The notes beneath the pieces were generated by a model. That model saw nothing but the letters and a program-made list of their open reading frames with translations. It had not been told where the DNA came from and did not search any database. 64,000 nt of DNA, from NCBI GenBank assembly GCA_900470445.1, contig UCAU01000006.1:93224-157223 (forward strand), in the 5' to 3' direction. The DNA is from Hyphomicrobiales bacterium. GTDB lineage: Bacteria > Pseudomonadota > Alphaproteobacteria > Rhizobiales > Devosiaceae. Below are positions 5,465 to 26,329 of the stretch, piece by piece. Every line of letters begins with the position of its first letter. Positions within the stretch are counted from its first letter, which is position 1. Both the position numbers and the translations under genes were made by a program.

Positions 5465-5469
5465 GTTGC

Positions 5470-7554: not shown

Positions 7555-7562
7555 GGCGGGTC

Positions 7563-8372: not shown

Positions 8373-9680
8373 TTAGGCCGGGTAGGGCAGGCCGTAGCGG
8401 TCGCGGATAGTCTTGCCCTCATAGCTGCGAGGATAAACGCCGCGGTCCTGCAGGATCGGTATGACCTTTTCCACGAATTCGGCAATGTCGTCCGGCGCGC
8501 GGGGCGGCTGCAGGGTGTAGCCGTCCACCGTGCCGTCGGCCCAGAAATCGATGATCGCGTCGGCCACTTCCTCGGGCGTGCCCAGCAGCAGGCGATGGTG
8601 TCCCTCCGAGCGCCGCACGGCCTGGCGGGCGGTGAGCTTTTCGTGGGTAAGCAATTCCGACAGACCCAGACCCATGCCGACTGCCATCAGGCGGTTCTGG
8701 TCGGGGATGAAATTTGCCCCATCAAGCACCGCATCGGGATCGAAATCGGCCGGATCGATGCCGTTCTCCTTGGCGAAGCGGGCCAGCAGCCCGTCCTCGG
8801 AGCCGGCGCCGCTAAACAATTCGTGTTTGCGCAAGGCCTCCTCGCGCGTCTCGCCCAGGATAACGACGAGCCCAGGCACGATGCGGATGCCGGCGGGGTC
8901 GCGACCTAAAGCGATCGCCCGGTCCTTCACCTTCTTGCCGAAGGCACGTCCGGCTGGACGCGACAGGATGTTGCAATAGATGATCTCGCCGTGCCGGGCC
9001 GCCAGGTCGATGCCGCCCTCGGAGGCGCCGGCCTGGGCGATTACCGGATGGCCCTGCGGCCCGCGCGGCACATTGAGCGGGCCCTTGATGGTGAAATACT
9101 CGCCCTCATGATCGATGGTATGGGCGCTCGACGCATCCCAGAACCGTTCGGGCGGCACCTCGCCCTCGCGCGCCGGATCCCAACTGGCCCAGAGTTTTTT
9201 GGCCACGTCGAGGAATTCCGAAGCTCTGGCGTAGCGCGCGGCGCGCGGCGGCAGCGGTTCGCTGCCGAAATTGGCGGCGACGGCCGGATTGAACGAGGAG
9301 ACGATATTGATGATCAGTCGGCCGCCGGAAATGATGTCGGTCGACTGCGTCCGCCGCGCCAGATTGAACGGCGAATTGTAGCTCGACGACATAGTCACGA
9401 CGAAGCCGATATCGGGCACCTGCGCGGCCAGCGCCGTGCTCAGGATCAGCGGGTCGATAGTGTGGAAGGGCCGCCCGTTCGGATCGGTGGCGAGCGCCGG
9501 GTGATCGGAAAAGAATACCGCATCGAACACGCCCTGATGGGCGAGTTCGGTGAGCCGCCGGTAATAATCCGGGTCGTTGATGTCGTGCTTGGTGCCGGTC
9601 CGATATCTCCACGCATTGCCGAGATAGCCGGTAGTGTTGATGCCGACATTGAGATTGAGCCGGCGTGTCGTCGTGGTCAT
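8373..9680 (-). CDS. NtaA/SnaA/DszA-family flavin-dependent monooxygenase
   Basis: A 435-residue luciferase-like (LLM) enzyme of the NtaA/SnaA/DszA group. Typical segments are RRLNLNVGINTTGYLGNAWRY-like N-terminus, DAVFFSDHPA, TMSSSYNSPFNLARR, IINIVSSFNP and HPVIAQAGASEGG. The family uses reduced FMN supplied by a separate reductase to oxygenate compounds such as sulfones or aminopolycarboxylates; DszA itself converts a sulfone to a sulfinate. Its ATG overlaps the stop of the DszC-type gene upstream (4 bp). It is the last gene of the organosulfur operon, which also has two DszB-like genes. A DszA-like sulfone-cleaving role is inferred from this context. Confidence 0.9.
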   Translation of the reverse strand: MTTTTRRLNLNVGINTTGYLGNAWRYRTGTKHDINDPDYYRRLTELAHQGVFDAVFFSDHPALATDPNGRPFHTIDPLILSTALAAQVPDIGFVVTMSSSYNSPFNLARRTQSTDIISGGRLIINIVSSFNPAVAANFGSEPLPPRAARYARASEFLDVAKKLWASWDPAREGEVPPERFWDASSAHTIDHEGEYFTIKGPLNVPRGPQGHPVIAQAGASEGGIDLAARHGEIIYCNILSRPAGRAFGKKVKDRAIALGRDPAGIRIVPGLVVILGETREEALRKHELFSGAGSEDGLLARFAKENGIDPADFDPDAVLDGANFIPDQNRLMAVGMGLGLSELLTHEKLTARQAVRRSEGHHRLLLGTPEEVADAIIDFWADGTVDGYTLQPPRAPDDIAEFVEKVIPILQDRGVYPRSYEGKTIRDRYGLPYPA

Positions 9681-10930
9681 GCGATTGCTTTCGCTTGCTG
9701 CGTGGTATCGGCCACGCCGATGCCGCCATGCGGCGCGGGCGTGGTGCCATTGACGGCGAAGTCGCCGACAACGCGATCGTGGTAGATGCGGGGATTGTGC
9801 GAGGCGATGGTGCGTGCATTGCGCCAGTGCCGATCCAGCCCATGGCTGCGCTTGGCAGCCGAGGCGCCCAATGCGTCGAACAGGATGGTGCTGGCGTCGA
9901 GAATGAGGCTGGTGACCACCGTCACCGATTGGCTGACCTCGAGATCGGCATTGCGGTCGGCCTCGGCTTTCGCCTCGGCGTCGCCGGACTGATGGGCCTG
10001 ATAGGAGCGCTGCAGCGCATCGGCCGCCTTAAGGGTAATGGCGCCAGCGGCATAGGCCTCACCGCGCACCTTGCCGACCACTTGCAGCACCTGCGGGTCC
10101 TGGGCTGTCCGTGCAGCATTACCCCGGCCATAGACGCGCTTGCGTTCAGCCACGTGACGCGACAGGTCGCCCGCCGCTGCCCGGCCAATTCCGGCCAGGC
10201 TCGCCAGATGCACGAGTTGGAAGAAGCCGCCGGAATAGGGAAAGCGCAGGGCGGTGGGTTTCAACAGGTCATCGCTGATGGCCACGTCCTTGAACCGGGC
10301 CGTGCCGCTGGCGCTGAGCGCCTGCCCGAACCCATCCCAGTCATCGAGGATTTCGACGCCCTCAGCACCGGTCGGCACCAGCGCGCCGATAGGATTGCCC
10401 TCGCCATCGGCCGCGCCCAGCGTGATCCAGTCGGCATAGAGCGAGCCGGTTGTGTAATATTTCTCGCCATTGAGCAGCCAGCCGTCGCCGTGGCGCACCA
10501 GCCGCGTCGACCACGTGCCGATCTTGCCTTCGCCAAGCTCGGAAAAGCCGCTGCCGATAATCTCGCGGTTGCCCAGATGCTTGAGCCAGGCATCGCGCCA
10601 CGGGCTGGCGGGAGCGTTCAGCACATCCTCGGTGAAGCCGAGATGGCTGCGAAAGGCATTGGTGATGTTGGGGTCGGCTTCGGAAAGCTCGATCAGCAGG
10701 CCAAATAGTTCCGGTAGCGTGAAACCCAGGCCGCCATGCTCCACGGGCAGGCGGAGCGTTGAAAATCCGGCATCACGCAGCCAGCCGATCTCCTCGCGCG
10801 GCAGGATGCGTTCGACATCGCGCGTCACCGCCCGCTCGCGAATACGCGCGAAGATCGGGCGGAATGGCGCGGCGAGGGTTTCGAAGCGGTCGGATGGGCC
10901 GGCGCCCCAGGCTTGGCTGATATTGGTCAT
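9677..10930 (-). CDS. DszC/SfnB-type acyl-CoA dehydrogenase-family monooxygenase
   Basis: A 417-residue flavoprotein with the acyl-CoA dehydrogenase fold. It has a helical N-terminal domain (RLPVEHGGLGFTLPELFGLL), a middle beta domain (GSGFSELGEG; LNGEKYYTTGSLYADW) and a C-terminal helical domain. The end LDRHWRNARTIASHNPRIYH is the signature of the DszC/SfnB/XiaF branch, which lacks the acyl-CoA dehydrogenase catalytic base and works as an FMNH2-dependent monooxygenase. DszC oxidises thioether sulfur; SfnB-type proteins act in sulfone/sulfonate sulfur use. It is translationally coupled to the DszA-like gene. Confidence 0.88.
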   Translation of the reverse strand: MTNISQAWGAGPSDRFETLAAPFRPIFARIRERAVTRDVERILPREEIGWLRDAGFSTLRLPVEHGGLGFTLPELFGLLIELSEADPNITNAFRSHLGFTEDVLNAPASPWRDAWLKHLGNREIIGSGFSELGEGKIGTWSTRLVRHGDGWLLNGEKYYTTGSLYADWITLGAADGEGNPIGALVPTGAEGVEILDDWDGFGQALSASGTARFKDVAISDDLLKPTALRFPYSGGFFQLVHLASLAGIGRAAAGDLSRHVAERKRVYGRGNAARTAQDPQVLQVVGKVRGEAYAAGAITLKAADALQRSYQAHQSGDAEAKAEADRNADLEVSQSVTVVTSLILDASTILFDALGASAAKRSHGLDRHWRNARTIASHNPRIYHDRVVGDFAVNGTTPAPHGGIGVADTTQQAKAIA

Positions 10931-11048: not shown

Positions 11049-12647
11049 TCAGGCGGTGAAGTGAGCGTAGGCCAGGCTCCCAGCGATGCCTTCGGCACCA
11101 GTCGTATGGTCGGCGATGCGCTTGTCGTAGAGCGTGAGGTCGGGGGAGCTGACGACGTTGATATCGGGCAGGTCTTCGATGATCTGCGCCTGGAAATCGG
11201 CGAATTGCTGGAAGCGGGTGGCCGGATCGGTTTCGATGGCGGCGGCTTCGAGCAGGGCATCGGCGGCGGGGCTATTGTAGCCGGAGCCGTTGGTGAAGGG
11301 GATGCCGGGCTTGAAGTTCTTGCTCCAATAGAGGCGCTGCACCCCCACTGTCGGATCGAACAGATTGCTCATGCCGTGATAGGTGAAGTCGAAATCGCGA
11401 TCGGTATAGACGCGCTTGATATAGGTGGCGAAATCCTGCGAGCGCAGCGAGACTTCGATGCCAACCTTGGCCAGGGCCTGCTTGATATATTCGCCGCCGC
11501 GCTTGTAGAGGTCCTGCCCGCCGAGGGGATCGAGCGTGATGCGCTGGCGAATGCCGTCGGTGCCGCGCGGGAAGCCGGCCGCGTCGAGCAGACTCTCGGC
11601 CCTGGCCGTGTCGAGGGCATAGGTCTTGAGGTTGGGGACGAAATATTTGGCCAGCGAGGGAACGATGGGCCCCTCGATCACCGAGCCATAGCCGAAATTG
11701 ACGGTCTGGTGGATGACCGATTTGTCGATGGTATGGGCGAAGGCCTGGCGAACGCGCACATCCTTGAAGAAGGGGTGTTCGAAGTTGAATTCGATGCGCG
11801 AGAGATTGTTCTTGTAGCCATAGCCGCGCCGCTCGATGGCGATATTGGGCAGGGTTTCGAAGCGGGCCAGATCGCTGAGCGGAATGGGTGTGCTGGCGCC
11901 GATATGGACCTCGCCGGTTTCCAAGGCAATGGCGCGAGCGGCCGGGTCAGTGATGAAGCGGATGATCAGGCGATCGAGATAGGGCCTTGGCGCGTCCCAA
12001 TAATTTTCGTTGCGGACGAACTCGACATGGCTGCCGCGCACCCATTCCTTGAAGATAAAGGGGCCGGTGCCGACCGGGGCATTGTTATGCGGATTTTCGT
12101 CGACTTTGGTGCCTTCGTAGAGGTGACGTGGCACGATGGGGGTTTCCGACGAACCCAGAGCGGTCAGCAGGTAAGGGGCCGGCTTGGCGAGCTTGAGGAT
12201 GACGGTCAGATCGTCGGGAGTCTGGATATCGGAGACGGCGGCGAAGGTGACGCGGCCGCGCGGGTGACCTTCCTTGATCGCGGCGAGTGAGAAGGCAACG
12301 TCGGCGGCGGTGAAGGGCTGGCCGTCATGCCATTTGACATTAGGACGCAGGCCGAATGTGTAGGTCAGCCCGTCGGGCGCGACATCCCAGCTCGTGGCCA
12401 GCAGCGGCAATGGGTTGAGATCGAAATCATAGGTCAGCAGGCCTTCGCTGTGCTTGCCGGTGAAATCGGTGACGCCGGTATGCACGATGCCGGTGAGGGT
12501 CGGCGGCTCGCTGCCGGATAGCAGCACGAGCGTGCCGCCATGCTGGGGCGATTGGGCGAGGGTGGGGCCGGCCAGCAGGCTGGCGCCGAGGGCGGCTGCG
12601 GATAGGCCGAGGAAATGGCGCCGGCTGGGTGTCCAGAGCGAGGACAT
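11049..12647 (-). CDS. Peptide-type (family 5) ABC transporter substrate-binding protein
   Basis: A 532-residue DppA/OppA-class receptor with a twin-arginine-like leader (PSRRHFLGLSAAALGASLLAGPTLA). Core family motifs are LLTYDFDLNPLPLLATSWDV, PNVKWHDGQPFTAADVAFSL, GTGPFIFKEW and VRQAFAHTIDK. The ATG at 12647 is preferred because CGGAGA lies upstream and the signal peptide starts there; the longer upstream frame overlaps a repeat and the rhodanese gene. It has no permease in its own operon. The likely partner is the divergent DppBC-DF transporter at 19.2-22.9 kb. The binding protein at 26688-28304 is its close paralogue. Confidence 0.92.
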   Translation of the reverse strand: MSSLWTPSRRHFLGLSAAALGASLLAGPTLAQSPQHGGTLVLLSGSEPPTLTGIVHTGVTDFTGKHSEGLLTYDFDLNPLPLLATSWDVAPDGLTYTFGLRPNVKWHDGQPFTAADVAFSLAAIKEGHPRGRVTFAAVSDIQTPDDLTVILKLAKPAPYLLTALGSSETPIVPRHLYEGTKVDENPHNNAPVGTGPFIFKEWVRGSHVEFVRNENYWDAPRPYLDRLIIRFITDPAARAIALETGEVHIGASTPIPLSDLARFETLPNIAIERRGYGYKNNLSRIEFNFEHPFFKDVRVRQAFAHTIDKSVIHQTVNFGYGSVIEGPIVPSLAKYFVPNLKTYALDTARAESLLDAAGFPRGTDGIRQRITLDPLGGQDLYKRGGEYIKQALAKVGIEVSLRSQDFATYIKRVYTDRDFDFTYHGMSNLFDPTVGVQRLYWSKNFKPGIPFTNGSGYNSPAADALLEAAAIETDPATRFQQFADFQAQIIEDLPDINVVSSPDLTLYDKRIADHTTGAEGIAGSLAYAHFTA

Positions 12648-12692
12648 GGGGAAATCTCCGGGAGGGACGTAAGGGTAGCGGCCGACGCGCGA

Positions 12693-12730
12693 GGAAGAAT
12701 TGCTTTGCGGTTGGGCAAAGCAATTCTTCC
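12693..12730. repeat. 15-bp-stem palindromic repeat, copy 2
   Basis: Arms GGAAGAATTGCTTTG (12693-12707) and CAAAGCAATTCTTCC (12716-12730) pair perfectly around an 8-nt loop CGGTTGGG. It lies 8 nt after the rhodanese stop codon (12739-12741), the same spacing as copy 1. Compared with copy 1, one base in each arm is changed (C to G, and G to C opposite), which keeps the stem intact. The flank GACGCGCGA before both copies is also shared. Confidence 0.8.
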
Positions 12731-12738
12731 TGCGGGGA

Positions 12739-13830
12739 TCAGGCGACAGCGCTGAGTTTGGCTTGTTCGAAATCGTGCAGCAGGATGGCGATTTCGTAGC
12801 CGCGGCGTTTGAGCCAATGGGCGACCGTCTTGGCGCGGACGCCGAGCAGGTCATCGACCAGGATGACGCGGGCGCCGCGCACGGCGATGGTGCGATAGGC
12901 GACGCCGAGCAATTGGCCGCCTTCGGAGGAAATCGAGCGCGGCAGATGGCCGGCAGCGAATTCCTCGGGGGTGCGGACATCGAGGAAGTAGGTGGTGCGG
13001 TTCTTGTCGCTCACCCAGGCGTCGGCATTGGCCTGATCGATATAGAGCAGGCTATCGTGCTTGGAGAGGGTTTCGATATGCTCGGCGGCGAATTGCTTGG
13101 CCGTGTCGCTCGCCTTGCCATAGGCGGCGGTTTTGCCGGTTTCGAGCTTGAGGCCCGCATTGGTCCAGCCCTTGGTGCCGTCATCGAGATAGGCGACGAA
13201 ATTGGGCACGCCGGCATCGATCAGCGTCTGGGCGCCGAGGATGGCGCGGGGCAGGCCGGCGCAGGAGACCAGAACTTTGGTGCTGGCCGAGGGGACCAGA
13301 TCCTTGAAGCGCAGGACCAGTTCGGCGCCGGGGACGCTGACGGCGCCGGGGACGTGCTCCCTGGTGTATTCGGGCAGCGTGCGGCTATCGAGCACGATTA
13401 CGTCTTCGCCCTTGTCGCGCAGGGCCTGGAGCTCGGTGGCGGTGACGGCCGGGGTGCCTTTTTCGTCGCGGACCTTGGTGACGAAGGGGACGCCGGGAAT
13501 GTCGAAAGTTGGCAGATTGTCGAGGCCACCTTCGATCCAGGCGGGAATGCCGCCCTCGAGGGCCTGGATATTGCTCCATCCGGCAGCGGCGAGGCGGGCG
13601 ACGGCGGCTTGGGCTGTGCCCTTGCCGTCATCGACCAGTACCGTGCGCACGACGCGGCGCGGGATGAAGCGGTCGATTTCGGCATCCAGCCGGTCGGCCG
13701 GTAGATTGGTGGCGAAAAGCGGCGAGGCGTAGCCGACATCGGCGGCGGGACGAATGTCGAGGACTGCCAATTCGGCGCCATCGCCGAGCCAGTCGATAAG
13801 GGTCTGCTTGCTGATCGTGCGATGGGTCAT
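12739..13830 (-). CDS. Triple rhodanese-domain protein (sulfurtransferase-like)
   Basis: A 363-residue protein with three rhodanese-like modules: about residues 1-110 (LAVLDIRPAADVGYASPLFA), 125-240 (VIVLDSRTLPEYTREHVPGA) and 265-360 (TYFLDVRTPEEFAAGHLPRS). Only the middle one has an active-site cysteine, in SCAGLPR. The corresponding loops of the first and third read VDDGKGTA and VDDLLGVRA and lack cysteine. Such proteins move sulfane sulfur to acceptors such as cyanide, thiols or sulfite. The start is the ATG at 13830 with AGGAG upstream. Its place in an organosulfur operon suggests handling of released sulfur. Confidence 0.88.
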   Translation of the reverse strand: MTHRTISKQTLIDWLGDGAELAVLDIRPAADVGYASPLFATNLPADRLDAEIDRFIPRRVVRTVLVDDGKGTAQAAVARLAAAGWSNIQALEGGIPAWIEGGLDNLPTFDIPGVPFVTKVRDEKGTPAVTATELQALRDKGEDVIVLDSRTLPEYTREHVPGAVSVPGAELVLRFKDLVPSASTKVLVSCAGLPRAILGAQTLIDAGVPNFVAYLDDGTKGWTNAGLKLETGKTAAYGKASDTAKQFAAEHIETLSKHDSLLYIDQANADAWVSDKNRTTYFLDVRTPEEFAAGHLPRSISSEGGQLLGVAYRTIAVRGARVILVDDLLGVRAKTVAHWLKRRGYEIAILLHDFEQAKLSAVA

Positions 13831-13988
13831 GCCGGAGCTCCTGTGGTCAAATGCTGCCTCGAGCATCCGGCTACTTGACGGAATTCAAAAGAATGATTTT
13901 CTGTCAGTCGCGGAAAGCAAGCCTTTCGGCGCAATGCGCATTTCGCCATAGACCTGGAAAGCACCGATCGATTGCGCTAGAGCTACGC

Positions 13989-14639
13989 TCAATACGCCGC
14001 GGTAAAACGCTGGCGGATGAAGGTGTTCTGCTCCAGCGCATCGAGCACGGCGATGGCGAAATCGGCTTCCGAAATCCGGCTCTCGCCGTCATCGTCGCGC
14101 AGCAATTGATCGCCGCCGAGCCGAAAGCGCCCGGTGCGCTCGCCAGGTTTGATGGTGAGCGGGGGCGACACATAGGTCCAGTCCAGGTCATGCTCGCCCC
14201 GCTTGAGGCTGTGCAGGATCTCGCGATTGCGCAAAGTATGCGCCTTGTGGCCGGCCGGGTAGAAATCGCTATCGACCACATCGACGCCCGGACTGGTCTC
14301 GAGGCTCCCCACGCCACCCACGATGATCAGTCGCTTGACGCCTGCCTGCTTGACGCCCGCGAACAGGCCGTCATGCGCCTTGCGGATCAACTCGGCCGCG
14401 TCTTCCGCAGAGTAGTTGCGCAGGCCCGGGCTATAGGCACTGATCACCGCGTCGTGGCCTGCGGCGATCTTTGCGACATCGTCGGCATTGGCGATATCGG
14501 CCGAAAGCGCCGTCAGGTTAGGCTCCGGCGCCAGCTTGGCCGAGCGGGTAACCGCGGTAACGCGATGGCTTCGCGACAACGCCTCCTTGCGGATATTGCT
14601 GCCGATATTGCCGGATGCGCCGAAGACGACGATGGACAT
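13989..14639 (-). CDS. NAD(P)-binding Rossmann oxidoreductase (atypical SDR)
   Basis: A 216-residue atypical short-chain dehydrogenase. The N-terminal nucleotide-binding motif is VVFGASGNIGSNIRKEAL (GxxGxxG), followed by ALSADIANADDVAKIAAGHDAVISAYSPG and LIIVGGVGSLE. There is no classical YxxxK pair that I can assign with confidence, as is common in this subgroup. It lies 32 nt after the NmrA-like gene in the same direction. The substrate is unknown. An isomerase/reductase role on a carbonyl or quinone made by the monooxygenases is possible but not shown. Confidence 0.82.
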   Translation of the reverse strand: MSIVVFGASGNIGSNIRKEALSRSHRVTAVTRSAKLAPEPNLTALSADIANADDVAKIAAGHDAVISAYSPGLRNYSAEDAAELIRKAHDGLFAGVKQAGVKRLIIVGGVGSLETSPGVDVVDSDFYPAGHKAHTLRNREILHSLKRGEHDLDWTYVSPPLTIKPGERTGRFRLGGDQLLRDDDGESRISEADFAIAVLDALEQNTFIRQRFTAAY

Positions 14640-14671: not shown

Positions 14672-15541
14672 CTAGCCTGCAAGCGCCGCCTCGGCGGCGA
14701 AATGTTCGGCGATGAAGGCTTTGACCGTGCGTGGCGCATGGCCGAGCAGTTCGGGCACTACGCGGGTGACTGTGGCCGCCCGGCCAGCGGCGATCAGCGT
14801 ACCGAACTGGGCAACGGCGCGATGCTCGAACCCATCACCCAGCAGCGGCGCGACGCTTCCCGAAGTCTCGGCAACTCCGATCGGCCGGTGCAGCACACGC
14901 GCCAGGATCCCGGCGATATCGCGGATCGAAACGGCTTCGCTGCCGGTGATGATCAGCGGCTTGTCCGCGACTCGTGGCGCCAGCAATTGATGCACGGCCA
15001 CATCGGCAATGTCGCGGGCGTCGATATAGGCAACGCGGGCTGTGCCATGTCGCGCATTGAGCACCTGGCCAGTCATGGCCTGCCTGATCGTGTTGAGGAG
15101 TGCGACCTGCATCCAGGCATTGGGACGGATGCAGACATGTTCGATATTGAGGCCGCGTAGATGCCATTCGACCGCCGCATGCGCGTCGCCCGAAATCGAG
15201 ACGCCGGGCGGATCGATGGTCCAGTCGGACCCCGAAATCTTGACGATGCGCGAGCCGCCCTCGATGGCGGCGGCGCCGGCCGCGGCGATCTGTTCCTCGA
15301 CTAGGCTCTCGCTGATCGGGGACAGCAGGAAAAGCTTGCGGGTGCCGGCCAGCGCTTTATGCAACGAATCCCGATCGGCGAAATCGCCTGGGGCAATCTC
15401 GACCCTGGCGCCGAACAAGGCCCGTGCCGTTTCGGGCCTCCGGGCGAAGACCCGGACGCGCTGGTTCTGTTCGAGCAACCTTGCGGTTACCAATTGGCCC
15501 AGCCGCCCGGTGGCCCCGGTCACCAGGATCGGGGCGCTCAT
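14672..15541 (-). CDS. NmrA-family NAD(P)-binding protein
   Basis: A 289-residue NmrA/TMR-like atypical SDR with the dinucleotide motif VTGATGRLGQLVTARLL at the N-terminus, RVRVFARRPETARALFG and GDFADRDSLHKALAGTRKLFLL. Many members are NAD(P)H-dependent quinone or azo reductases or redox sensors. The ATG overlaps the stop of the upstream desulfinase-like gene by 4 bp, so the two are probably co-translated. It might reduce an organic product left after desulfonation, or supply reducing power. No flavin reductase signature is visible. Confidence 0.84.
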   Translation of the reverse strand: MSAPILVTGATGRLGQLVTARLLEQNQRVRVFARRPETARALFGARVEIAPGDFADRDSLHKALAGTRKLFLLSPISESLVEEQIAAAGAAAIEGGSRIVKISGSDWTIDPPGVSISGDAHAAVEWHLRGLNIEHVCIRPNAWMQVALLNTIRQAMTGQVLNARHGTARVAYIDARDIADVAVHQLLAPRVADKPLIITGSEAVSIRDIAGILARVLHRPIGVAETSGSVAPLLGDGFEHRAVAQFGTLIAAGRAATVTRVVPELLGHAPRTVKAFIAEHFAAEAALAG

Positions 15542-16563
15542 GCCGCATTGCGGCGTGTAGCCGCCTCCAGGGGAGCCGGCGCGAACCAGCCTGCCACGTC
15601 GAAATCAGCCGGGATAAATCCCCATTCGAGCAGGAAGGTCTTGAAATGGGCGAAGGCCACTGCCTGCTCCTCATCCAAGGTCAGCGCAAGATGGCGATGC
15701 ACATCCGGCCCATTGGCGGCCCAGACGGCGTCCTCGCCGACACCGATCTCGTTGGCGATCAGTTGCACCGCGTCATGCGGATGGGCCTCGGCCCAGTCAG
15801 CGACGCGGCCGACAATGTCGACGAGATCAGCCACGAGGTCTGGGCGTTGCTCGAGAAAGAGCGCATCCACTGTCAGCGGACGCGGCGTGCCATTGTTGAC
15901 GCGAATGCGCGGATCGGGATGGAAGCCGAATTCGGATACGACGACTGCGCCAATCTGGTTGGCCAGCACCAGTCCCTCGGCGCCCTTGACGAAAAAGGCG
16001 TCGATCCGGCCGCTGGCCAAGGCTAGCAGCTCTTCGCCATAGGGATAGCGGCGTTTGAGACCGAGGAAGGCCGCATTGCCGGTCTCGATCAAACTGGCTT
16101 CCGGGCTGTCGAGATAGATCAGTTCCACATCGGTGTGAGACAGCCCCTCGAGCGAAAGCGCGGAGACAATGCCCTTGAGCGCGGTGGCGCGCTGGAAATC
16201 GATGCGCTCGCCCGGCTTGCGCGGCACGCCAATGCCGCGGCCCCTGAGGTCGCTGCCTTTGGCGATGCCGGAGCCGGGCAGGGCGATGATGGCCTGGAAT
16301 TCGTCGGTCGTGGTCACGCCGACGACCCGCGTCTGCCGCCCGCCCGAACGGGCCCAGAGCGGGGGAATATTGCCGCCCTGGCGGAACGAGAAATCCAGCG
16401 CGTGGGTAAAGTGGCTCTCCCGCACCGCCGGATCCTTGCTATCGCGGATCGAGCGCACGCCGACGCCTGCCTCCTTGAAGTGTTGTTCCACCCAGCCGAG
16501 CTGGTAGGCGATGGAGAGCGGGGTGGGCGCGGGGCAGCGGGTATACCAGACCGATTGGCTCAT
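15538..16563 (-). CDS. DszB-like sulfinate desulfinase, paralogue 1
   Basis: A 341-residue protein with the NMT1/SsuA-type two-lobed fold but no signal peptide (begins MSQSVWYTRCPAPTP), so it should be cytoplasmic. It keeps the residues known to be catalytic in DszB (2'-hydroxybiphenyl-2-sulfinate desulfinase: Cys27, His60, Arg70): here Cys10 in RCPAP, His51 in ESHFTH and Arg61 in FRQGGNIPPL. The His-Arg spacing of 10 is identical to DszB. The ATG at 16563 is chosen because GGAG lies 7-8 nt upstream and homology begins there. It likely releases sulfite from an organic sulfinate. A binding-protein role is the alternative but fits the missing leader poorly. Confidence 0.82.
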   Translation of the reverse strand: MSQSVWYTRCPAPTPLSIAYQLGWVEQHFKEAGVGVRSIRDSKDPAVRESHFTHALDFSFRQGGNIPPLWARSGGRQTRVVGVTTTDEFQAIIALPGSGIAKGSDLRGRGIGVPRKPGERIDFQRATALKGIVSALSLEGLSHTDVELIYLDSPEASLIETGNAAFLGLKRRYPYGEELLALASGRIDAFFVKGAEGLVLANQIGAVVVSEFGFHPDPRIRVNNGTPRPLTVDALFLEQRPDLVADLVDIVGRVADWAEAHPHDAVQLIANEIGVGEDAVWAANGPDVHRHLALTLDEEQAVAFAHFKTFLLEWGFIPADFDVAGWFAPAPLEAATRRNAA

Positions 16564-16576
16564 CAGAGGGCTCCGA

Positions 16577-17803
16577 TCACGCGCTGCCGACGACGGCGAG
16601 GCGGGGTGGCTGGTGCGTGCGCACCGGAACGGGCTCAAGCGGCGAGGTGCTTGCCGCGGCGTGCCGGCCCAATGCCGCCTTGGCCAGAATGATGCGGATC
16701 ATGTTGTTCTGCGGCGCATGCGCCTTGCCGGAGAGGGCATCGCGATGGTGGCGCTCCAGCGGATTGTCCCGGCTGATGCCGGGATTGCCGCCCAGATCGA
16801 GCGCCAGCGTCGTGGCCGCGATGGCATTCTCGATCACCACATGCTTGACCGCCGCGGCGTCGGGGCCGAATGGACGCCCGCTGTCATAATCCTCGGCAAT
16901 CGATCGCAGCAGGCGCCGGTTGGTGGTGAGCCAGACTTCGATCTGGCCCAGTCCATCCTGCATGCGGGGCAGGGTGGCTAGCGGCGCGCCCAGGCTTGCC
17001 GGGGCGCGGGTCGTGGTGAATTCGATCAGCCAGTCGCGTGCACCGCGCGCTGCGCCATCATAAATCGCCGGTACCAGCGAAAAATACCAGGCACCCTGAC
17101 GTTCATCGCGCCTGAGGCCTTCGCTGGCCGGGGCGATGTCAATAACGTCTTCAAGTGGGATCGCAACATCGTCGAGGATGAGGTCATCGCTATTGGTGGC
17201 GCGCATGCCGGTGGCATTCCAGGTCTTCTCGACGCGAATGCCATCGGCATCGGTCGGCACGAGGAACGAGCCAAGACGTGGCTCGGGCTCGTCGGTGATG
17301 GCGAGCACGGCAACCCATTTCAGCAGCGGAATGCCGGTGGCATAGGTCTTGTGGCCCGTGATGCGCCACTGATTGCCCACCTTGCGGGCGATGGTCTCGG
17401 GTGGCGAGCCATGCGAGGGCGAGCCGACGCGAGGCTCGACCTGAGCGGCATTGAGCAGCGCCACTCCGTCGCGATTGGCCTTGGTCACCCGCTCGATCAA
17501 ATGGTCCGGCCACTTGCCGGAGGCGCGGATGGAATAGTGCTGGCTGTAATGCATGGCCAGCACGAGGGCGGTGGAGGGTTCGCCTCGCGCTACCGACGAA
17601 ACCACCGCCAGCGCCTCGGTCAACCCGCCGCCCAGCCCGCCATGCTCGGTGGCGGTCACCAGACCCAGAAGGCCCGCCTCATAGAGCGCATCGAAATTGG
17701 CGAAAGGAAAATCGCCGGTTTCGTCATAATGCCGGGCGGTCAGGGCAAACCGTTTGCCCAATTGCTCGGCCTGTTCCAGGTAGGGCGCGAAATCCGTGGT
17801 CAT
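16577..17803 (-). CDS. Acyl-CoA dehydrogenase-family flavoprotein (SfnB/DszC-related)
   Basis: A 408-residue protein of the acyl-CoA dehydrogenase fold: EHGGLGGGLTEALAVVSSVARGEPSTALVLAMHYSQH in the helical domain, WRITGHKTYATGIPLLKW in the beta domain, and a C-terminus with GNPGISRDNPLERHHRDAL. It is more divergent than the DszC-type protein at 9677-10930 and lacks the HWRN signature. It sits between the two DszB-like genes, 12-13 nt from each, so co-expression is very likely. It may oxygenate or desaturate the organosulfur substrate. The precise reaction is not deducible. Confidence 0.84.
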   Translation of the reverse strand: MTTDFAPYLEQAEQLGKRFALTARHYDETGDFPFANFDALYEAGLLGLVTATEHGGLGGGLTEALAVVSSVARGEPSTALVLAMHYSQHYSIRASGKWPDHLIERVTKANRDGVALLNAAQVEPRVGSPSHGSPPETIARKVGNQWRITGHKTYATGIPLLKWVAVLAITDEPEPRLGSFLVPTDADGIRVEKTWNATGMRATNSDDLILDDVAIPLEDVIDIAPASEGLRRDERQGAWYFSLVPAIYDGAARGARDWLIEFTTTRAPASLGAPLATLPRMQDGLGQIEVWLTTNRRLLRSIAEDYDSGRPFGPDAAAVKHVVIENAIAATTLALDLGGNPGISRDNPLERHHRDALSGKAHAPQNNMIRIILAKAALGRHAAASTSPLEPVPVRTHQPPRLAVVGSA

Positions 17804-18859: not shown

Positions 18860-19184
18860 GCCTCTCCGTCGGTGATGGCCGTCGCTGCCGGCCGCTGCGT
18901 CTCAATCCAGCCGGAAGAGCATTTTCCAAGCCCTGGAGTGCAGAGAGTTGAAAATTGCTCACCCATCCTTGGATTGGCAAAAACTTGCTTACAGAAGATC
19001 ATATTCGCCTGATTGAGGAAGCTAGTTCCTGAAAAGCCGTAACGACAGGATGGATTTTCTGAAACACGTTTGACAAAGCCTATAAAATTAGTCAACAATA
19101 AAATTCAGGAGCTGCGAACCGCCCCGGCTTGTCGCAGCAACCGGCCGTTCCCGGCCATTCGAAGCACATCAAGAGAGCTTGCTT
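18860..19184. promoter_or_regulatory. Divergent promoter region of the organosulfur island
   Basis: This 325-bp spacer separates the divergent operons and is AT-rich in the middle. A TTGACA hexamer at 19070-19075 faces the transporter genes. TTGAC (19070-19074) and GTCAA (19091-19095) form an inverted repeat around TATAAAATTA, so both strands carry a -35-like box and the element could also be an operator. On the minus strand a TATGAT box lies at 18998-19003. No regulator gene is adjacent, and I see no small gene. Exact start points are not determinable. Confidence 0.4.
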
Positions 19185-20171
19185 ATGTCAGCGCTGGCCA
19201 GAACCGCCCGATCGTTGCGGCGAACGTTGTTGCAGGCGATCCCCACCGTTCTGGGGATCATCATCCTCAACTTCTTCCTGCTGCAGTTGGCCCCTGGCGA
19301 CGCGGCCGACGTGATGGCCGGGGAGGCGGGTTCTGCCACCGCAGAATCCATGGCTGCATTGCGGACCCGCTTCGGGCTCGACAATCCCGTGTTGGTCCAG
19401 CTCGCCAATTATCTCAACAATCTCGCCCATTTCAGTCTAGGGTTTTCACCGCGCTATGGCATGCCGGTCATGGACCTGATCGGCCAGCGCCTGCCGGGCA
19501 CGCTGACCCTGATGGCTATGGCGCTGGCCATCGCCATCCTGATCGGCCTCGCCCTGGGCTCGGTCATGTCCTTCTTCGCCGGTCGCCTGCCGGACCGGTT
19601 GCTGTCGATCTTCTCGCTGCTGTTCTATTCAATTCCCGGCTTCTGGATCGGGCTGATGCTGATCGTGCTGTTCTCGGTAACGCTGGGTTGGCTGCCCAGC
19701 GGCGGGGCAGGGACCATCGGCTCCAACCTCACAGGTTGGGCCGCCATTGTCGACAAGGCGCGCTATATGGTGCTGCCGGCTACTTCGCTGGCGCTGTTTT
19801 ACGTCGCCATCTACGCACGTTTGACCCGCGCCGCCATGCTGGAGGTCCGCAGCCAGGACTTCGTTCGCACCGCCTACGCCAAGGGGCTTTCGCCCGTTGC
19901 GGTGACACTGCGCCACGTGTTGCGCAACGCGCTCATTCCCATCACCACCATGGCCGGCATGCATATCGGCGGCATGCTCGGTGGCGCCGTGGTGGTGGAG
20001 ACCGTCTACAGCTGGCCCGGCCTGGGCCGGCTCGCCTTCGAGGCCGTGATGGGCCGCGACTACACGGTTCTGCTCGGCATTCTGTTGCTGTCCTCGCTGC
20101 TGGTGATCTTTGCCAATGCGGTGGTGGACCTGCTGCAGACCTGGCTCGACCCACGGATTGGAGAACACTGA
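19185..20171 (+). CDS. Peptide-type ABC transporter permease (DppB-like)
   Basis: A 328-residue inner-membrane permease. It has an N-terminal helix (TVLGIIILNFFLLQLAPGDAAD), then the DppB hallmark of GDAADVMAGE plus a long periplasmic loop, five further helices, and the EAA-type cytoplasmic loop RSQDFVRTAYAKGLSP near residues 220-235. The ATG at 19185 is preferred over a TTG at 19179 because AAGAGAG lies 7 nt upstream. It overlaps the next permease gene by one base. It should pair with DppC and the fused ATPase, and probably uses the binding proteins encoded at 11049-12647 and/or 26688-28304. Confidence 0.93.
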   Translation: MSALARTARSLRRTLLQAIPTVLGIIILNFFLLQLAPGDAADVMAGEAGSATAESMAALRTRFGLDNPVLVQLANYLNNLAHFSLGFSPRYGMPVMDLIGQRLPGTLTLMAMALAIAILIGLALGSVMSFFAGRLPDRLLSIFSLLFYSIPGFWIGLMLIVLFSVTLGWLPSGGAGTIGSNLTGWAAIVDKARYMVLPATSLALFYVAIYARLTRAAMLEVRSQDFVRTAYAKGLSPVAVTLRHVLRNALIPITTMAGMHIGGMLGGAVVVETVYSWPGLGRLAFEAVMGRDYTVLLGILLLSSLLVIFANAVVDLLQTWLDPRIGEH

Positions 20172-21139
20172 TGTCCACGACCGATCTCGGCGTCGGCGCC
20201 GTTACGGCCAGGCCGGAGGCCCCGGCCAAGCCCGAATGGCACAATCTGCGGGCCCCCGATGCACGCACTACGCTCACTGCCACCGTTACCGTCCCGGCCG
20301 GCTGGCGTGAACTGCGGCTGTTCCTCCGCAATCCCAACGCGCTATTCGGCTTGGTCTTTCTAGGCATCATGGTCGTCATCGCGCTGATTGCCCCCCTTAT
20401 CTTCCCCGGCGATCCGCTAGGCATGGTGACCAAGCCTTTCCTGTGGCCCGGACAGGACGCAGCCTATCCCCTGGGGAGCGATTCCATGGGCCGCGACGTG
20501 CTGGCCGGCATTGTCCACGGCTCGCGCATTTCCCTGTTCGTAGGCCTTGCCGCCACCGCATTGGGCCTGACCGTGGGCGTGCTGGTCGGGGCGACAGCGG
20601 GCTATTTCGGCGGCTGGGTCGATGACGTGCTGGTGCGCATCATCGAGATCTTCCAGACCCTGCCCAATTTCGTCCTGCTGGTGGTGCTGGTGGCCATCCT
20701 GCAGCCCTCCGCACTGACGGTGACCATCGCCATTGCCATCGTCAGTTGGCCCATGGTGGCGCGCCTGACCCGCGCCGAATTCCGCGCCATCCGCGAGAAG
20801 GATTACGTCATGGCCGCCCGTAGCCTGGGCTTCGGCAATGCCCGCATCATCTTCCAGGAAGTGCTGCCTAATGCCCTGCCGCCGCTGATCGTCACCGCCT
20901 CGGTCATGGTGGCAACGGCCATCCTGATGGAATCGGCGCTGAGCTTCATGGGGCTGGGTGATCCAAACGTGGTCAGTTGGGGTTCGATGATCGGCAGCGG
21001 TCGCGAGTTGATCCGCACCGCCTGGTACCTGACGTTGCTGCCGGGCCTTGCCATCGTCTTCACCGTGCTGGCGCTTAACCTGATCGGCGATGGCCTCAAC
21101 GACGCCCTCAATCCACGCTTTTCGGAGGAACGGGCATGA
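20171..21139 (+). CDS. Peptide-type ABC transporter permease (DppC-like)
   Basis: A 322-residue permease of the DppC/OppC type. It opens with a cytoplasmic N-terminal stretch, then the first helix (LFGLVFLGIMVVIALIAPLIF), the family motif LGSDSMGRDVLAGIVHGSRISL near residues 97-118 and the EAA loop REKDYVMAARSLGFGNARIIFQEVLPN. The ATG at 20171 overlaps the DppB stop (TGATG), and the end overlaps the ATPase start (ATGA), so all three genes are translationally coupled. A longer in-frame extension upstream is only the shadow of dppB. Confidence 0.93.
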   Translation: MSTTDLGVGAVTARPEAPAKPEWHNLRAPDARTTLTATVTVPAGWRELRLFLRNPNALFGLVFLGIMVVIALIAPLIFPGDPLGMVTKPFLWPGQDAAYPLGSDSMGRDVLAGIVHGSRISLFVGLAATALGLTVGVLVGATAGYFGGWVDDVLVRIIEIFQTLPNFVLLVVLVAILQPSALTVTIAIAIVSWPMVARLTRAEFRAIREKDYVMAARSLGFGNARIIFQEVLPNALPPLIVTASVMVATAILMESALSFMGLGDPNVVSWGSMIGSGRELIRTAWYLTLLPGLAIVFTVLALNLIGDGLNDALNPRFSEERA

Positions 21140-22890
21140 ACGCGATCACCCCGACACTAGCGCAATCCCGCCCGGCCAATACCAGCCGCCTGCTGGAAGT
21201 CGAAGATCTCACCATCCGTTTCGGCACAACCGATCCGGTCAAGCGGCTGAGCTTCCACATCGATCGCGGCGAAACCCTCGCCGTGGTGGGCGAGTCCGGC
21301 TCCGGCAAGTCGCTGAGCGCCCTGGCGCTGATGCGCCTGCTGCCCCGCAATGCCCGCATTCCCAATGGCCGCATCAGTTTCGAAGGCCAGGACCTGCTGG
21401 CCCTCTCCGAGCGTGACATGCGCAAGGTGCGCGGCCGCGACATCGCCATGATCTTTCAGGAGCCGATGACCTCGCTCAATCCGGTGGCGAGCATCGGCAA
21501 CCAGATCGTCGAAGTGCTGCGCCTGCATGAAAAACTGTCGCACAAGGCGGCGCGCGAACGGGCCATCGAACTGCTTGATCTGGTGAAAATCCCCGAGCCG
21601 GCCAAACGGGTCGATGACTTTCCCCACCAGCTCTCTGGTGGCCAGCGCCAGCGCGTGATGATCGCCATGGCCGTTGCGTGCAAGCCCAAGCTGCTCATCG
21701 CCGACGAGCCCACCACTGCGCTCGACGCCACGATCCAGGCGCAGATTCTCGAACTGCTCGATGAATTGCGCCACAAGCTGTCCATGGGCCTGTTGCTCAT
21801 CACTCACGATCTGGGCCTGGTGTCGCGCTGGAGCGATCGGGTCGTGGTCATGTATCACGGCGACAAGCTCGAGGAGCTGGCGACGCCCGATCTGTTCCGA
21901 CCCGGCCGGCATCCCTATACCAATGGTCTCACCCAGGCCTCCATTCGGCTCGACGAGGAAGTGCACTACTCCGCCCAGTCACTCGCCGAGGTGCGTGTGG
22001 TGCGCGGCGCCGATGGCCGCAATGTCTACGACGTGAAGCCGCCGGCAAAACGCCTGCCAACGACGCCTGCCACTGCCGAACCGCTGCTGGCTGTGCGCGA
22101 CCTCTCAGTGACCTACCAGACCAGACAGCGCGCCAATCGGGCGCTCGACAATGTCTCGCTGACCCTCGCCAAGGGCGAAACCCTCGGCATTGTGGGCGAA
22201 TCCGGCAGCGGCAAGTCGACCCTTTCCAAGGCTATCATGCGCTTGGTCAACACCCAGCAGGGCAGCATCGTCTTCCAGGGGCGGGACATTACCGCGCTTT
22301 CCCCCAATCAGTTGCAGCCGGTGCGCCGCGACCTGCAGATGATCTTCCAGGATCCGTTTGGCTCGCTCAATCCGCGCAAGACCATCCGCGACATCCTCGA
22401 GGCGCCACTGATCGTGCACGGCGTCAGGGATGCCGCCGAGCGCCGCCGCCGTCTCAACGAAACCTTCGAGCATGTCCGCCTGCCGTCAAATGTCGCCGAT
22501 CGCTATCCGCATGAATTCTCCGGCGGACAGCGCCAGCGCATTGGCATTGCTCGCGCGCTGATCCTGCGACCGTCGCTGGTCATTTGCGACGAGCCGGTCT
22601 CGGCACTCGACGTCTCGATCCAGGCGCAGATTCTCAATCTGCTAGTCGACCTCAAGACCTCGCTGGGTCTATCCTATCTCTTCATCTCGCACGATCTCGC
22701 CGTGGTCCAATACATTTCGGACCGGGTGATCGTGATGAAGGATGCCCGGATCGTCGAGGAGAGCGACCACAGGACCATCTGGCGGTCGCCGAAAACCGAC
22801 TATACCCGCGCGCTGATCGCCGCGGCCAATGACAAGGGTGGCGCCCGCGTGGCCCATCCGCGTGCAGCACGCGAACTCGCCGCCATTTAA
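21136..22890 (+). CDS. Fused DppD-DppF dual ATPase of the peptide-type ABC transporter
   Basis: A 584-residue protein with two complete ABC ATPase domains. The first has Walker A GESGSGKS near residue 52, signature LSGGQRQRV and Walker [13 protein letters not shown]. The second has GESGSGKST near 355, [15 protein letters not shown] and [11 protein letters not shown]. Each carries the C-terminal oligopeptide-transport extension (RHPYTNGL in the first). Both halves look catalytically intact. It drives the adjacent DppBC permeases. Confidence 0.94.
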
Positions 22891-22953: not shown

Positions 22954-24015
22954 ATGGTCGACTACCGTTACCTCGGGCGCAGCGCCCTCAAGGTGTCGCC
23001 AATCACCCTCGGCAGCATGATGTTTGGCAACCAGACGCCCGACGATGTTGCGTTCCGCATCATCGACAAGGCACATGACCAGGGCATCAATTTCATCGAT
23101 ACGGCCGACGTCTATCATGACGGCAAATCCGAGCAGGTCGTCGGCCAGGGCATTAAGGCCAATCGCGACGACTGGGTCGTGGCCACTAAATTCGTCAATT
23201 CGCGCAGCAAGAACCCCAACAAGGGCGGCTATTCGCGCAAATGGGTCTTCGAAACGGTCGAGAACAGCCTGCGCAATCTCAAGACCGATTATATCGACAT
23301 CATCTATTTCCACCGCGCCGTATTCGATGCCTCGCTGGAAGAGCCAGTGCGGGCGATTGCCGACCTGATCAAGGCCGGCAAGCTGCGCTATTTCGGCGTC
23401 TCGAACTTCCGCGGCTGGCGCATTGCCGAAGTGGCCCATCTGGCCGACCAGCTCGGCATCGACCGCCCGATCGCCAGCCAGCCGCTCTACAATATCGTCA
23501 ACCGCACCGCCGAGGCCGAGCAATTGCCAGCCGCTGTGGCCAATGGCCTGGGCAATGTTTCCTATAGTCCGCTGGCGCGCGGCATCCTGACCGGCAAATA
23601 TAATATCGGTGAGGCACCCGGCGCCGACACCCGTGCCGGCCGCGGCGATAAACGCATGCATGATGTGGAATTCCGCGAGGAATCCATCGCCATCGCCAAG
23701 CAGGTCGCCGCCCATGCCGAAGCCAAGGGCATCGCCGCCGCCGATTTCGCGCTGGCCTGGGTGCTGAACAACCAGCTCATCACCTCGGCCATTGCCGGTC
23801 CGCGCACCGAAGAGCAGTGGGATGGCTATATCCGCGCGCTGGACGTCAAGCTCGATGCCGAAGATGAAGCGCTGGTCGATCGCCTGGTCGCAACCGGCCA
23901 TCCCTCGACACCCGGCTTCACCGATCCGGGCCACCCCATCGAAGGCCGCGTCGCCCGCTCCGCCGCCGGCACCGCCCAGGTCATCCCCCTGAGCCGAACC
24001 CAGAAGGTCGCGTAA
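22954..24015 (+). CDS. Aldo/keto reductase
   Basis: A 353-residue (beta/alpha)8 NADPH-dependent reductase. The catalytic tetrad is visible: Asp and Tyr in INFIDTADVYHDGKSE (about residues 45-60), Lys in VVATKF and His in DIIYFHRA. The phosphate-binding SNFRGW and the C-terminal SAIAGPRTEEQWDGY fit the family. It follows the transporter genes by 63 nt in the same direction and is followed by a strong terminator, so it probably ends that operon. It may reduce an aldehyde or ketone produced when the organosulfur compound is cleaved. Confidence 0.9.
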   Translation: MVDYRYLGRSALKVSPITLGSMMFGNQTPDDVAFRIIDKAHDQGINFIDTADVYHDGKSEQVVGQGIKANRDDWVVATKFVNSRSKNPNKGGYSRKWVFETVENSLRNLKTDYIDIIYFHRAVFDASLEEPVRAIADLIKAGKLRYFGVSNFRGWRIAEVAHLADQLGIDRPIASQPLYNIVNRTAEAEQLPAAVANGLGNVSYSPLARGILTGKYNIGEAPGADTRAGRGDKRMHDVEFREESIAIAKQVAAHAEAKGIAAADFALAWVLNNQLITSAIAGPRTEEQWDGYIRALDVKLDAEDEALVDRLVATGHPSTPGFTDPGHPIEGRVARSAAGTAQVIPLSRTQKVA

Positions 24016-24106: not shown

Positions 24107-25060
24107 TTATTCGGCGGCCTGCGCCTGCGTCTTGCGCAGGGCCAGTAGGCGCCGCGCATTGCCGCCGGCGACGAGCCGCTGCTCGGCTTCGTTCAGACCG
24201 GCTTCGGCAAGGTTCGCGCCCAGGCTTTCCGCCTGCAGCGCCGGCAGGATCGGCCAATCGGTGCCGGCTAGCACGCGCTCGGCGCCAAAGAAACCCACCA
24301 GCAGGCGCACGATGGCCGGATCGGCGCCCATCGTGTCGAAATAGATATTGGGACGCGGCTGCCGCTGCCGCTCTGTGCGACCATAGATGCCACCACGCGC
24401 CGCCTGCACGATACCGCCCAGGCCCAGCGTCGCGAACACCAGATGCAGATCGGGCAGGTCGTCGAGAATGGACGACTGGATGATGGAGAGGAATGCCACC
24501 CCATTCATCAAGCCGCGACCCAGCGAATTGCCCAGCATGCCGGCCCCGGCGATCAGCACATCGGAATTGGGATGCGCCACTGGATGCACGAAGACCGGCA
24601 CGCGGTGACGCGCCGCCACCTCGAGCGTCGGCCGGGCCGATGGGTCGGCCAGGAACTTACCCCCGCGCGAGGAGTCGATGACGAGGCCAGAGAGCCCCAG
24701 ATCGACGATGGCCCGTTCGGCTTCCCGCGCACCTGCCTCGCCCGCAAACACGTCGGTGACGGCGAAGGCCGCCAGCGACGGCTCGGTCGCGACCAGGCTG
24801 GCAAACCAGTCATTGGCCTCGGCGATAGCGCCGAAATCCACCGGGCCCTCGGCGCCGAACAGGCTTTCGATAGTCGCTGTGACCACTGCCAGCGACACCC
24901 CGGCCGCCTTGAATTCATCGACCAGCGCCGCCGGCGTCGTGATCTTGCGGTAGATCTCGGGCGAGAACGAACCGGCGGGCTTGGCATATTTACCGCCCGG
25001 GCCCCAGGCGGGTGGCCAGAGATGGGTATGGATGTCGACGATATCGAGCGGCGTGCTCAT
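24107..25060 (-). CDS. Amidohydrolase 2 family metal-dependent hydrolase
   Basis: A 317-residue TIM-barrel hydrolase/decarboxylase of the amidohydrolase-2 (ACMSD-like) group. It shows the metal-binding IVDIHTHLWPP at residues 7-17, VFVHPVAHPNSD in the middle and the late LAGTDWPI with a metal-ligand Asp near residue 270. The ATG at 25060 overlaps the SsuD-like gene stop by 4 bp; the longer upstream frame is a shadow of that gene. Members decarboxylate or hydrolyse ring-cleavage-type carboxylic acids. Its coupling to a sulfonate-type monooxygenase suggests it processes the carbon skeleton. Confidence 0.87.
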   Translation of the reverse strand: MSTPLDIVDIHTHLWPPAWGPGGKYAKPAGSFSPEIYRKITTPAALVDEFKAAGVSLAVVTATIESLFGAEGPVDFGAIAEANDWFASLVATEPSLAAFAVTDVFAGEAGAREAERAIVDLGLSGLVIDSSRGGKFLADPSARPTLEVAARHRVPVFVHPVAHPNSDVLIAGAGMLGNSLGRGLMNGVAFLSIIQSSILDDLPDLHLVFATLGLGGIVQAARGGIYGRTERQRQPRPNIYFDTMGADPAIVRLLVGFFGAERVLAGTDWPILPALQAESLGANLAEAGLNEAEQRLVAGGNARRLLALRKTQAQAAE

Positions 25061-26157: not shown

Positions 26158-26179
26158 TGGAAAGCTCCTGGTGATTGGC

Positions 26180-26329
26180 TCAGCCGCTGATGAAGCCGAA
26201 GGCGATGGCGAGCGCGAAGACAAAGGTCAGGCTCGTGCCGGCCAGCACCATCAGTTCGGCAGCCTTTCTGCGCATGACAATGCGGGGATTGATCGCGATG
26301 CGCGATTTGCCGGTTTCGATCACGGTCAT
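26180..26329 (-). CDS. Small hypothetical membrane protein (49 aa)
   Basis: A short gene with a strong ribosome site (GAGGTGA, 4 nt before the ATG at 26329). The product begins MTVIETGKSRIAINPRIVMR, has a basic patch RRK, and then one hydrophobic helix (AELMVLAGTSLTFVFALAIA) ending FGFISG. A single-pass membrane protein with the N-terminus inside is predicted. It is 22 nt ahead of the SsuD-like gene and in the same direction, so it is the first gene of that operon. I do not recognise the family. A role as a transporter or monooxygenase accessory factor is only a guess. Confidence 0.72.
   Translation of the reverse strand: MTVIETGKSRIAINPRIVMRRKAAELMVLAGTSLTFVFALAIAFGFISG

Follow-up and report, generated by a model that had tools for sequence, protein, structure and literature searches.

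The window analysed here, by which we mean the whole stretch of 64,000 nucleotides (nt) taken from contig UCAU01000006.1 of a Hyphomicrobiales bacterium of the family Devosiaceae, contains two paralogous genes on its minus strand that encode putative sulfinate desulfinases of the DszB type. The first of these, P0001 (15538..16563, 341 residues), was assigned from its phmmer match to DszB, its AlphaFold model and its fold match, and the second, P0002 (17816..18859, 347 residues), likewise from its phmmer match, model and fold match. The two proteins are 50% identical, and the existence of a second copy had been correctly indicated in an earlier note made from the DNA letters alone. The reading frame of P0001 runs from an ATG at 16563 to 15538, with GGAG 7 nt upstream of this ATG and the stop codon of the preceding gene 13 nt from it. 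A longer frame starting from a TTG at 16638 was not adopted, as it overlaps the upstream gene; its 25 extra residues show no hydrophobic segment by eye, and therefore the description of the protein as leaderless in the earlier note is retained. Neither a signal sequence nor a lipobox is visible by eye around the start. The sole cysteine of P0001 is Cys10 (codon at 16534..16536), which is preceded by Thr8 (16540..16542) and followed by His51 (16411..16413) and by an RXGG motif formed by Arg61-Gln62-Gly63-Gly64 (16372..16383), all on the minus strand. The corresponding residues in P0002 are Cys16, His57 and Arg67.

A phmmer search against all PDB chains aligned residues 4-336 of P0001 with residues 21-361 of DszB, the 2'-hydroxybiphenyl-2-sulfinate desulfinase (2de2, E 7.1e-12; 2E-10 for 2de3, the C27S form). 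DszB is the only PDB protein with an E-value below 0.05, the next protein being found at 0.051; the corresponding values for P0002 are 6e-13 and 0.32. In the alignment, Cys10, His51, Arg61 and Gly64 of P0001 fall on Cys27, His60, Arg70 and Gly73 of DszB, as had been proposed for the Cys-His-Arg set, and the spacing between His and Arg is indeed 10 in both proteins. The Cys-His spacing is 41 in P0001 versus 33 in DszB, a difference of 8 residues. The GGN-PP motif, which had also been listed as a point of agreement, is present in P0001 as GGNIPP, whereas DszB itself reads GGEIPP. Cys27 of DszB is the proton donor, and a dyad of His60 and Ser25, which are hydrogen-bonded to each other, stabilizes the transition state, while Arg70 is located in the conserved RXGG motif (PMC6100217). 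The C27S mutant is inactive, and the activity of H60Q is decreased only about 17-fold (PMC6100217). The position of Ser25 is occupied by Thr8 in P0001 and by Thr in 130 of the 131 family rows (one gene being included twice), a conservative replacement, so that P0001 has in common with DszB its fold, its length, an N-terminal Cys, the Cys-His-Arg-Gly set, the RXGG motif and a hydroxyl residue at this position.

The AlphaFold model of P0001 has a mean predicted local distance difference test (pLDDT) score of 92.4, weaker at residues 151-170, and that of P0002 has a score of 89.7. In a Foldseek search with the P0001 model three DszB chains ranked on top (E 1e-20), followed by SsuA (1e-14). Whole-chain superposition with VIA-align, the overlay on the crystal structure that had been suggested earlier, likewise gave DszB 2de3 as the best fold match (Z 32.8; 316 of 341 residues, root-mean-square deviation 2.9 A), with SsuA-type proteins next (Z 25.7 for 3uif and 24.8); for P0002 the Z-scores are 31.6 for DszB and 25.3 for SsuA. 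The SsuA fold originally assigned to P0001 is thus confirmed, although DszB fits better. His51 lies within a predicted helix (residues 45-53); in DszB, the loop 55-62 turns helical upon substrate binding, which moves His60 in, and in the closed form the Cys sulfur and the His nitrogen are about 4 A apart (PMC6100217). The pyrimidine synthase Thi5/NMT1, which carries a multi-cysteine iron motif, was rejected as a candidate, as P0001 has a single Cys and the Thi5 fold reaches only Z 17.7 versus 32.8 for DszB.

The shared fold raises the question whether P0001 could be an ordinary solute-binding protein of an ATP-binding cassette (ABC) transporter of the SsuA/NMT1 type that leaves the cytoplasm by an unrecognized route, in which the Cys-His-Arg likeness merely marks a sulfonate pocket. 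The aliphatic sulfonate binding proteins SsuA and TauA, which are exported transporter parts, have the same fold and domain arrangement, P0001 matches Pfam NMT1 above the cut-off (35.1 versus 20.5 bits), and relatives carry transporter labels: as had been anticipated for automatic annotation, many of those on plasmids are named 'ABC transporter substrate-binding protein' (others are labelled hypothetical or, in one Sphingobium record, monooxygenase). The score with NCBIfam SsuA_fam is, however, far below the cut-off (67.5 versus 163.5 bits), and since the same sub-threshold match is obtained for an annotated DszB (65.5% identity with the Rhodococcus enzyme), this label is no argument against a desulfinase. 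A quick maximum-likelihood tree separated DszB together with the family from 13 binding proteins, with a support of 99.9 in the Shimodaira-Hasegawa-like approximate likelihood ratio test (SH-aLRT); five of the 13 were used for the tree only. None of the other eight, which served as controls in the residue comparison, has any of the Cys, His and Arg residues at these positions, and a leader is seen by eye in seven of them, the eighth being in a fused frame with its start out of view; none is seen in P0001. A role as binding protein is therefore considered distinctly unlikely.

Within the family, the putative catalytic residues are strongly conserved. An alignment of 14 proteins, including one annotated DszB and with a lowest identity to P0001 of 28%, has 17 invariant columns, among them C10, P11, H51, R61, G63 and G64. 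A Cys-bearing motif, used to scan the genome collection, yielded at least 584 confirmed relatives, of which the best 80 were used as loci. As this motif itself selects for Cys, conservation of Cys is quoted from 55 rows chosen without it (54 distinct, one being the annotated DszB as a yardstick), although these sequences, too, were retrieved through their similarity to P0001, P0002, DszB or the alignment. Of the 54, 49 have the Cys, 52 the His and all the Arg, and R61, G63 and G64 are present in 55/55 rows. A single Cys, counted from the motif on, is found in 116 of 132 extracted family rows.

The genes surrounding P0001 fit a role in organosulfur metabolism. In the same-strand run, P0002 is followed after 12 nt by an acyl-CoA-dehydrogenase (ACAD)-fold flavoprotein (16577..17803; Pfam ACAD) and, after another 13 nt, by P0001. 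This flavoprotein is nearest in the PDB to two ACAD 'type 2' structures (5z8t, E 2e-65) and has NCBIfam matches below the cut-off to acryloyl-CoA reductase (E 3e-32) and SfnB (E 5e-29). The stop of P0001 overlaps by 4 nt the start of a gene for an NmrA-type NAD(P)-binding protein (14672..15541; Pfam NmrA / NAD_binding_10). The run continues with an NAD(P)-binding oxidoreductase (13989..14639; Pfam NAD_binding_10), a rhodanese protein (12739..13866; Pfam Rhodanese in three matched stretches), a family-5 (Opp/Nik-type) solute-binding protein (11049..12647; Pfam SBP_bac_5; signal-like N-terminus by eye, the start being picked by eye within the longer frame 11049-12980), a flavin monooxygenase of the DszC/SfnB/MsuC family (9677..10930; NCBIfam SfnB E 8e-75, below the cut-off) and a flavin mononucleotide (FMN) monooxygenase of the NtaA/DmoA family, to which DszA belongs (8373..9680; TIGR03860 above the cut-off), all on the minus strand.

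From 19179 onwards, diverging from P0002, the plus strand encodes an Opp/Dpp/Gsi-type importer and an aldo/keto reductase that is conserved in the cluster (22954..24015; Pfam Aldo_ket_red). The importer consists of an Opp/Nik-type permease B (19179..20171; NCBIfam Opp2B E 6e-87, NikB and GsiC, all below the cut-off), an Opp-type permease C with its Met at 20171 (20171..21139; Pfam OppC_N, NCBIfam Opp4C E 2e-81 below the cut-off) and a two-domain ATPase (21136..22890; two Pfam ABC_tran domains, NCBIfam GsiA E 5e-178 below the cut-off). Further on, an SsuD/SfnG-like monooxygenase is encoded on the minus strand (25057..26190; Pfam Bac_luciferase, NCBIfam SsuD E 2e-63 below the cut-off), and a second member of the DszC/SfnB/MsuC family on the plus strand (28322..29551; NCBIfam SfnB E 1e-83, below the cut-off). 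The region 8373-29551 as a whole looks like an organosulfur island, in which family-5 binding proteins and LLM-type flavoproteins are each encoded twice and ACAD-type flavoproteins three times, together with a rhodanese and an amidohydrolase. Both the DszA and the DszC families are thus represented near P0001, as in DszB-containing systems; different from DszB are the two paralogues in one operon, the Opp-type importer and the adjoining NAD(P)-binding and rhodanese genes.

The association with these genes is widely conserved. Among 66 of the best 80 loci (those of 20 kb or more, the 14 shorter ones being left out), ACAD-type relatives are present in 59 and LLM-type relatives in 56, with 49 loci having both types; OppB is present in 55 and a family-5 binding protein in 63. 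None of these was found in any of 17 control stretches (20 kb each, taken from two contigs of the own genome), the loci themselves being mutually related. The aldo/keto reductase occurs in 52/66 loci and 1/17 controls, and counts of the Opp ATPase (OppDF) are unspecific, as it was also matched in 7/17 controls. No Ssu/Tau-type transporter genes adjoin P0001; the adjacent transporter is of the Opp/Dpp/Gsi type and has binding proteins of its own, which again argues against P0001 being the binding component.

Taken together, the evidence from sequence, fold, conservation and genomic neighbourhood speaks for a DszB-type desulfinase rather than a binding protein, and we consider it likely that P0001 acts in the cytoplasm as a cofactor-free sulfinate desulfinase in the manner of DszB and ends a 4S-like pathway. 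DszB is described as independent of cofactors, in which it differs from the other desulfinating enzymes mentioned there (PMC6100217). In the proposed route, an organosulfur compound would be brought in through the Opp-type importer, after which the flavin monooxygenases would oxidize it and cleave one C-S bond, leaving a sulfinate. P0001 would grip this sulfinate via Arg61 and the backbone of Gly64, and P0002 would serve a second sulfinate. Cys10 would donate a proton to the sulfur-bearing carbon, with His51 and Thr8 stabilizing the thiolate and a lid shutting over the substrate as in DszB, and the SO2 or sulfite released would then be assimilated; sulfite/nitrite-reductase-type domains are present in the own genome.

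Several observations weigh against this interpretation. The identity between P0001 and DszB is about 25%, and the branch leading to the DszB pair in a tree has a length of 2.61 changes per column, the position of DszB within the family being unsure. Cys is replaced by Ser in all five exceptions among the 54 sequences, and two of the 54 lack His. The pocket differs as well: Trp155 and Leu152 of DszB are opposite a gap in 131/131 rows, Phe203 is replaced by Arg171 (Arg in 101/131 rows), Leu226 by Gly194 (Gly in 127/131) and Tyr63 by His54 (His in 127/131), with the reservation that the loop alignment is less certain and that residues 151-170 are of low confidence in the model. The mechanism of DszB has been argued for aromatic sulfinates, and an aliphatic substrate would not fit this mechanism in its present form. 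Of the neighbouring enzymes, the DszC-family monooxygenases are about as near to methanesulfinate monooxygenase as to DszC-type enzymes (9677-10930: TdsC E 8e-32, 'probable monooxygenase' 8cda 1.5e-29, methanesulfinate monooxygenase 2e-28 and DszC 1e-23; 28322-29551: 8cda 2e-39, TdsC 1e-32 and methanesulfinate monooxygenase 1e-30), and with the NCBIfam DszC model a neighbouring monooxygenase reaches 109.9 bits versus a cut-off of 850. They could therefore oxidize a sulfinate and compete with the desulfinase rather than feed it, which slightly lowers our confidence. Similarly, the DszA-family neighbour 8373-9680 is nearer to EDTA/NTA monooxygenases than to DszA (EDTA monooxygenase first, E 2e-92; DszA-type 5tlc, E 2e-55), so the two families are present near P0001, but not necessarily their reactions. 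Finally, one query, run with no positive control, detected no FMN reductase in the own genome.

The pocket residues allow the family to be delimited further. F61, W155 and F203 are also active-site residues of DszB (PMC6100217), of which only Phe61 is kept, as Phe52 in P0001 and as Phe or Tyr in 128/131 rows. P0001 as a dibenzothiophene DszB sensu stricto was therefore rejected, because Trp155 and Leu152 are gapped and Phe203 and Leu226 are mostly replaced, and the family is, judged by its sequences, a divergent and widespread variant of the DszB type. As the pocket lacks much of the hydrophobic wall and has gained an Arg, hydroxybiphenyl sulfinate is probably larger or less polar than the natural substrate. 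The same pocket, being unlike that of DszB, would also suit a protein with this fold and active site that catalyses another reaction, such as carboxylate protonolysis or cleavage of another C-S bond, and 4,5-dihydroxyphthalate decarboxylase (9jp7) and MqnD are among the fold matches of P0001, as is MqnA among those of P0002. These decarboxylase and menaquinone folds are found at Z about 13-15, however, far below DszB, and the neighbouring genes encode monooxygenases of a sulfur-acquisition type and a rhodanese, so that another reaction appears unlikely.

A set of 27 positions, each fixed to 90% or more within either group, separates the two paralogue groups (24 and 49 rows). It includes positions 12, 62, 66 and 70, which are near active-site residues in the sequence, and suggests that the groups may take two different substrates. 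Upstream of the island, a 5-oxoprolinase/hydantoinase B and A pair is encoded at 3812-7848, and a related cluster of Variovorax (L013) contains oxoprolinase, cysteine dioxygenase and cystathionine beta-lyase genes. Together with the importer ATPase, which has its best, though sub-threshold, score with the glutathione importer GsiA, these genes hint at a substrate derived from cysteine or glutathione.

The natural Ser variants bear on another possibility, namely that P0001 and P0002 sense or carry sulfinates in the cytoplasm and do not act as catalysts, for which the relatives with Ser would be the clear example. Four of the five Ser copies, from four genomes that belong to two genera of a single family, are in tandem with a Cys copy at a distance of 86-107 bp between matches, and a pseudoenzyme partner is a possible role for the Ser member of such pairs. 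In the fifth, a plasmid copy of Burkholderia arboris, His is also lost, and in one Sphingobium copy Cys is kept and His is absent. The full residue set is kept in both paralogues of the window, however, Pfam found no second domain in either of them, and both are located within an enzyme operon, which makes a sensor or carrier very improbable. The tandem pairs (G475:C1:2140882-2143049, G478:C1:259932-262087, G553:C1:149673-151852 and G768:C18:69334-71495) belong to loci L121-L124, L127, L128, L130 and L131, and lie beside an SsuD-like monooxygenase.

Other known systems resemble parts of this cluster. BdsA, encoded by the benzothiophene operon bdsABC of Gordonia terrae C-6, is described as a DszB-like desulfinase with low homology to enzymes of the 4S pathway; as in the case of P0001, it is encoded beside a flavin monooxygenase, with an alkanesulfonate-monooxygenase-like gene adjoining and transporter genes next in number, but it is actinobacterial, and the likeness is one of description only (PMC3868597). 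The flavin monooxygenase families of the island also recur in the SfnB/SfnG/MsuC/MsuD systems, which scavenge sulfones and sulfonates. In that route a sulfinate is oxidized to a sulfonate, which is then cleaved by MsuD, whereas the desulfinase proposed here would free sulfite directly.

The family occurs in rhizobia, Devosia, Comamonadaceae and others. In the own genus, 5 of 37 searched genomes are positive, including the own one, compared with 0/24 in other families of the order. At E 1e-15, with the best five candidates per genome scored, matches were found in 12 of 397 genomes sampled from the order and in 10 of 398 from the phylum; five and three of these are C-terminal only, to ordinary-looking binding proteins, so that 7 and 7 remain, the own genome being in both. 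P0001 was matched by 98 of 72,556 plasmid records, chiefly from Sinorhizobium (47) and Rhizobium (27); ordinary sulfonate-binding proteins account for some of the weakest matches. Keyword searches of the open-licence PMC literature returned no description of the family in the text covered, and 'sulfinate', 'desulfin' and 'DszB' are absent from the text of a 2026 paper on dimethyl sulfide (PMC13352529).

4S-type desulfurization, which ends in the desulfination of a sulfinate, is best known from petroleum-desulfurizing bacteria. As a broader proposal, to which we give somewhat less than even credence, P0001 and its relatives may form a large unrecognized family of the DszB type that serves natural 4S-like sulfur scavenging in Alpha- and Betaproteobacteria of soil and plants, with a polar sulfone or sulfinate entering through the Opp importer, the paralogues dividing the sulfinates between them, and the petroleum DszB being an offshoot. 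If so, a transporter label would be hiding a pathway that leads directly from organic sulfinates to sulfite in these bacteria, also on pSymA, the symbiotic plasmid of Sinorhizobium meliloti. Deletion of pSymB in this species is reported to raise transcription of the divergent pSymA operons sma2085-sma2077 (five genes) and sma2087-sma2101 (eight genes) (PMC5940162). The P0001-type cluster in pSymA records fits these operons in gene order and number as well as in its interpolated position, and may correspond to sma2077-sma2101.

DszB is described as the slow step of biodesulfurization, inhibited by its product (PMC12168087). A family that is widespread and divergent, and that combines this catalytic set with another pocket, offers a natural comparison for studies of mechanism and for engineering. 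A benzothiophene-desulfurizing Sinorhizobium strain, KT55, is cited in PMC3868597; its genes were not found in searches of the open-licence literature. Peptides from Chelatococcus are reported to match actinobacterial DszB and are, as far as the parts of PMC4839641 that describe them show, not of the P0001 family. On a Rhizobium leguminosarum plasmid (L015, 7956-9122), a distant member with the same residues is found in another setting, following two 2-hydroxyacyl-CoA dehydratase genes and preceding two activase genes, rhodanese genes and a sulfate permease.

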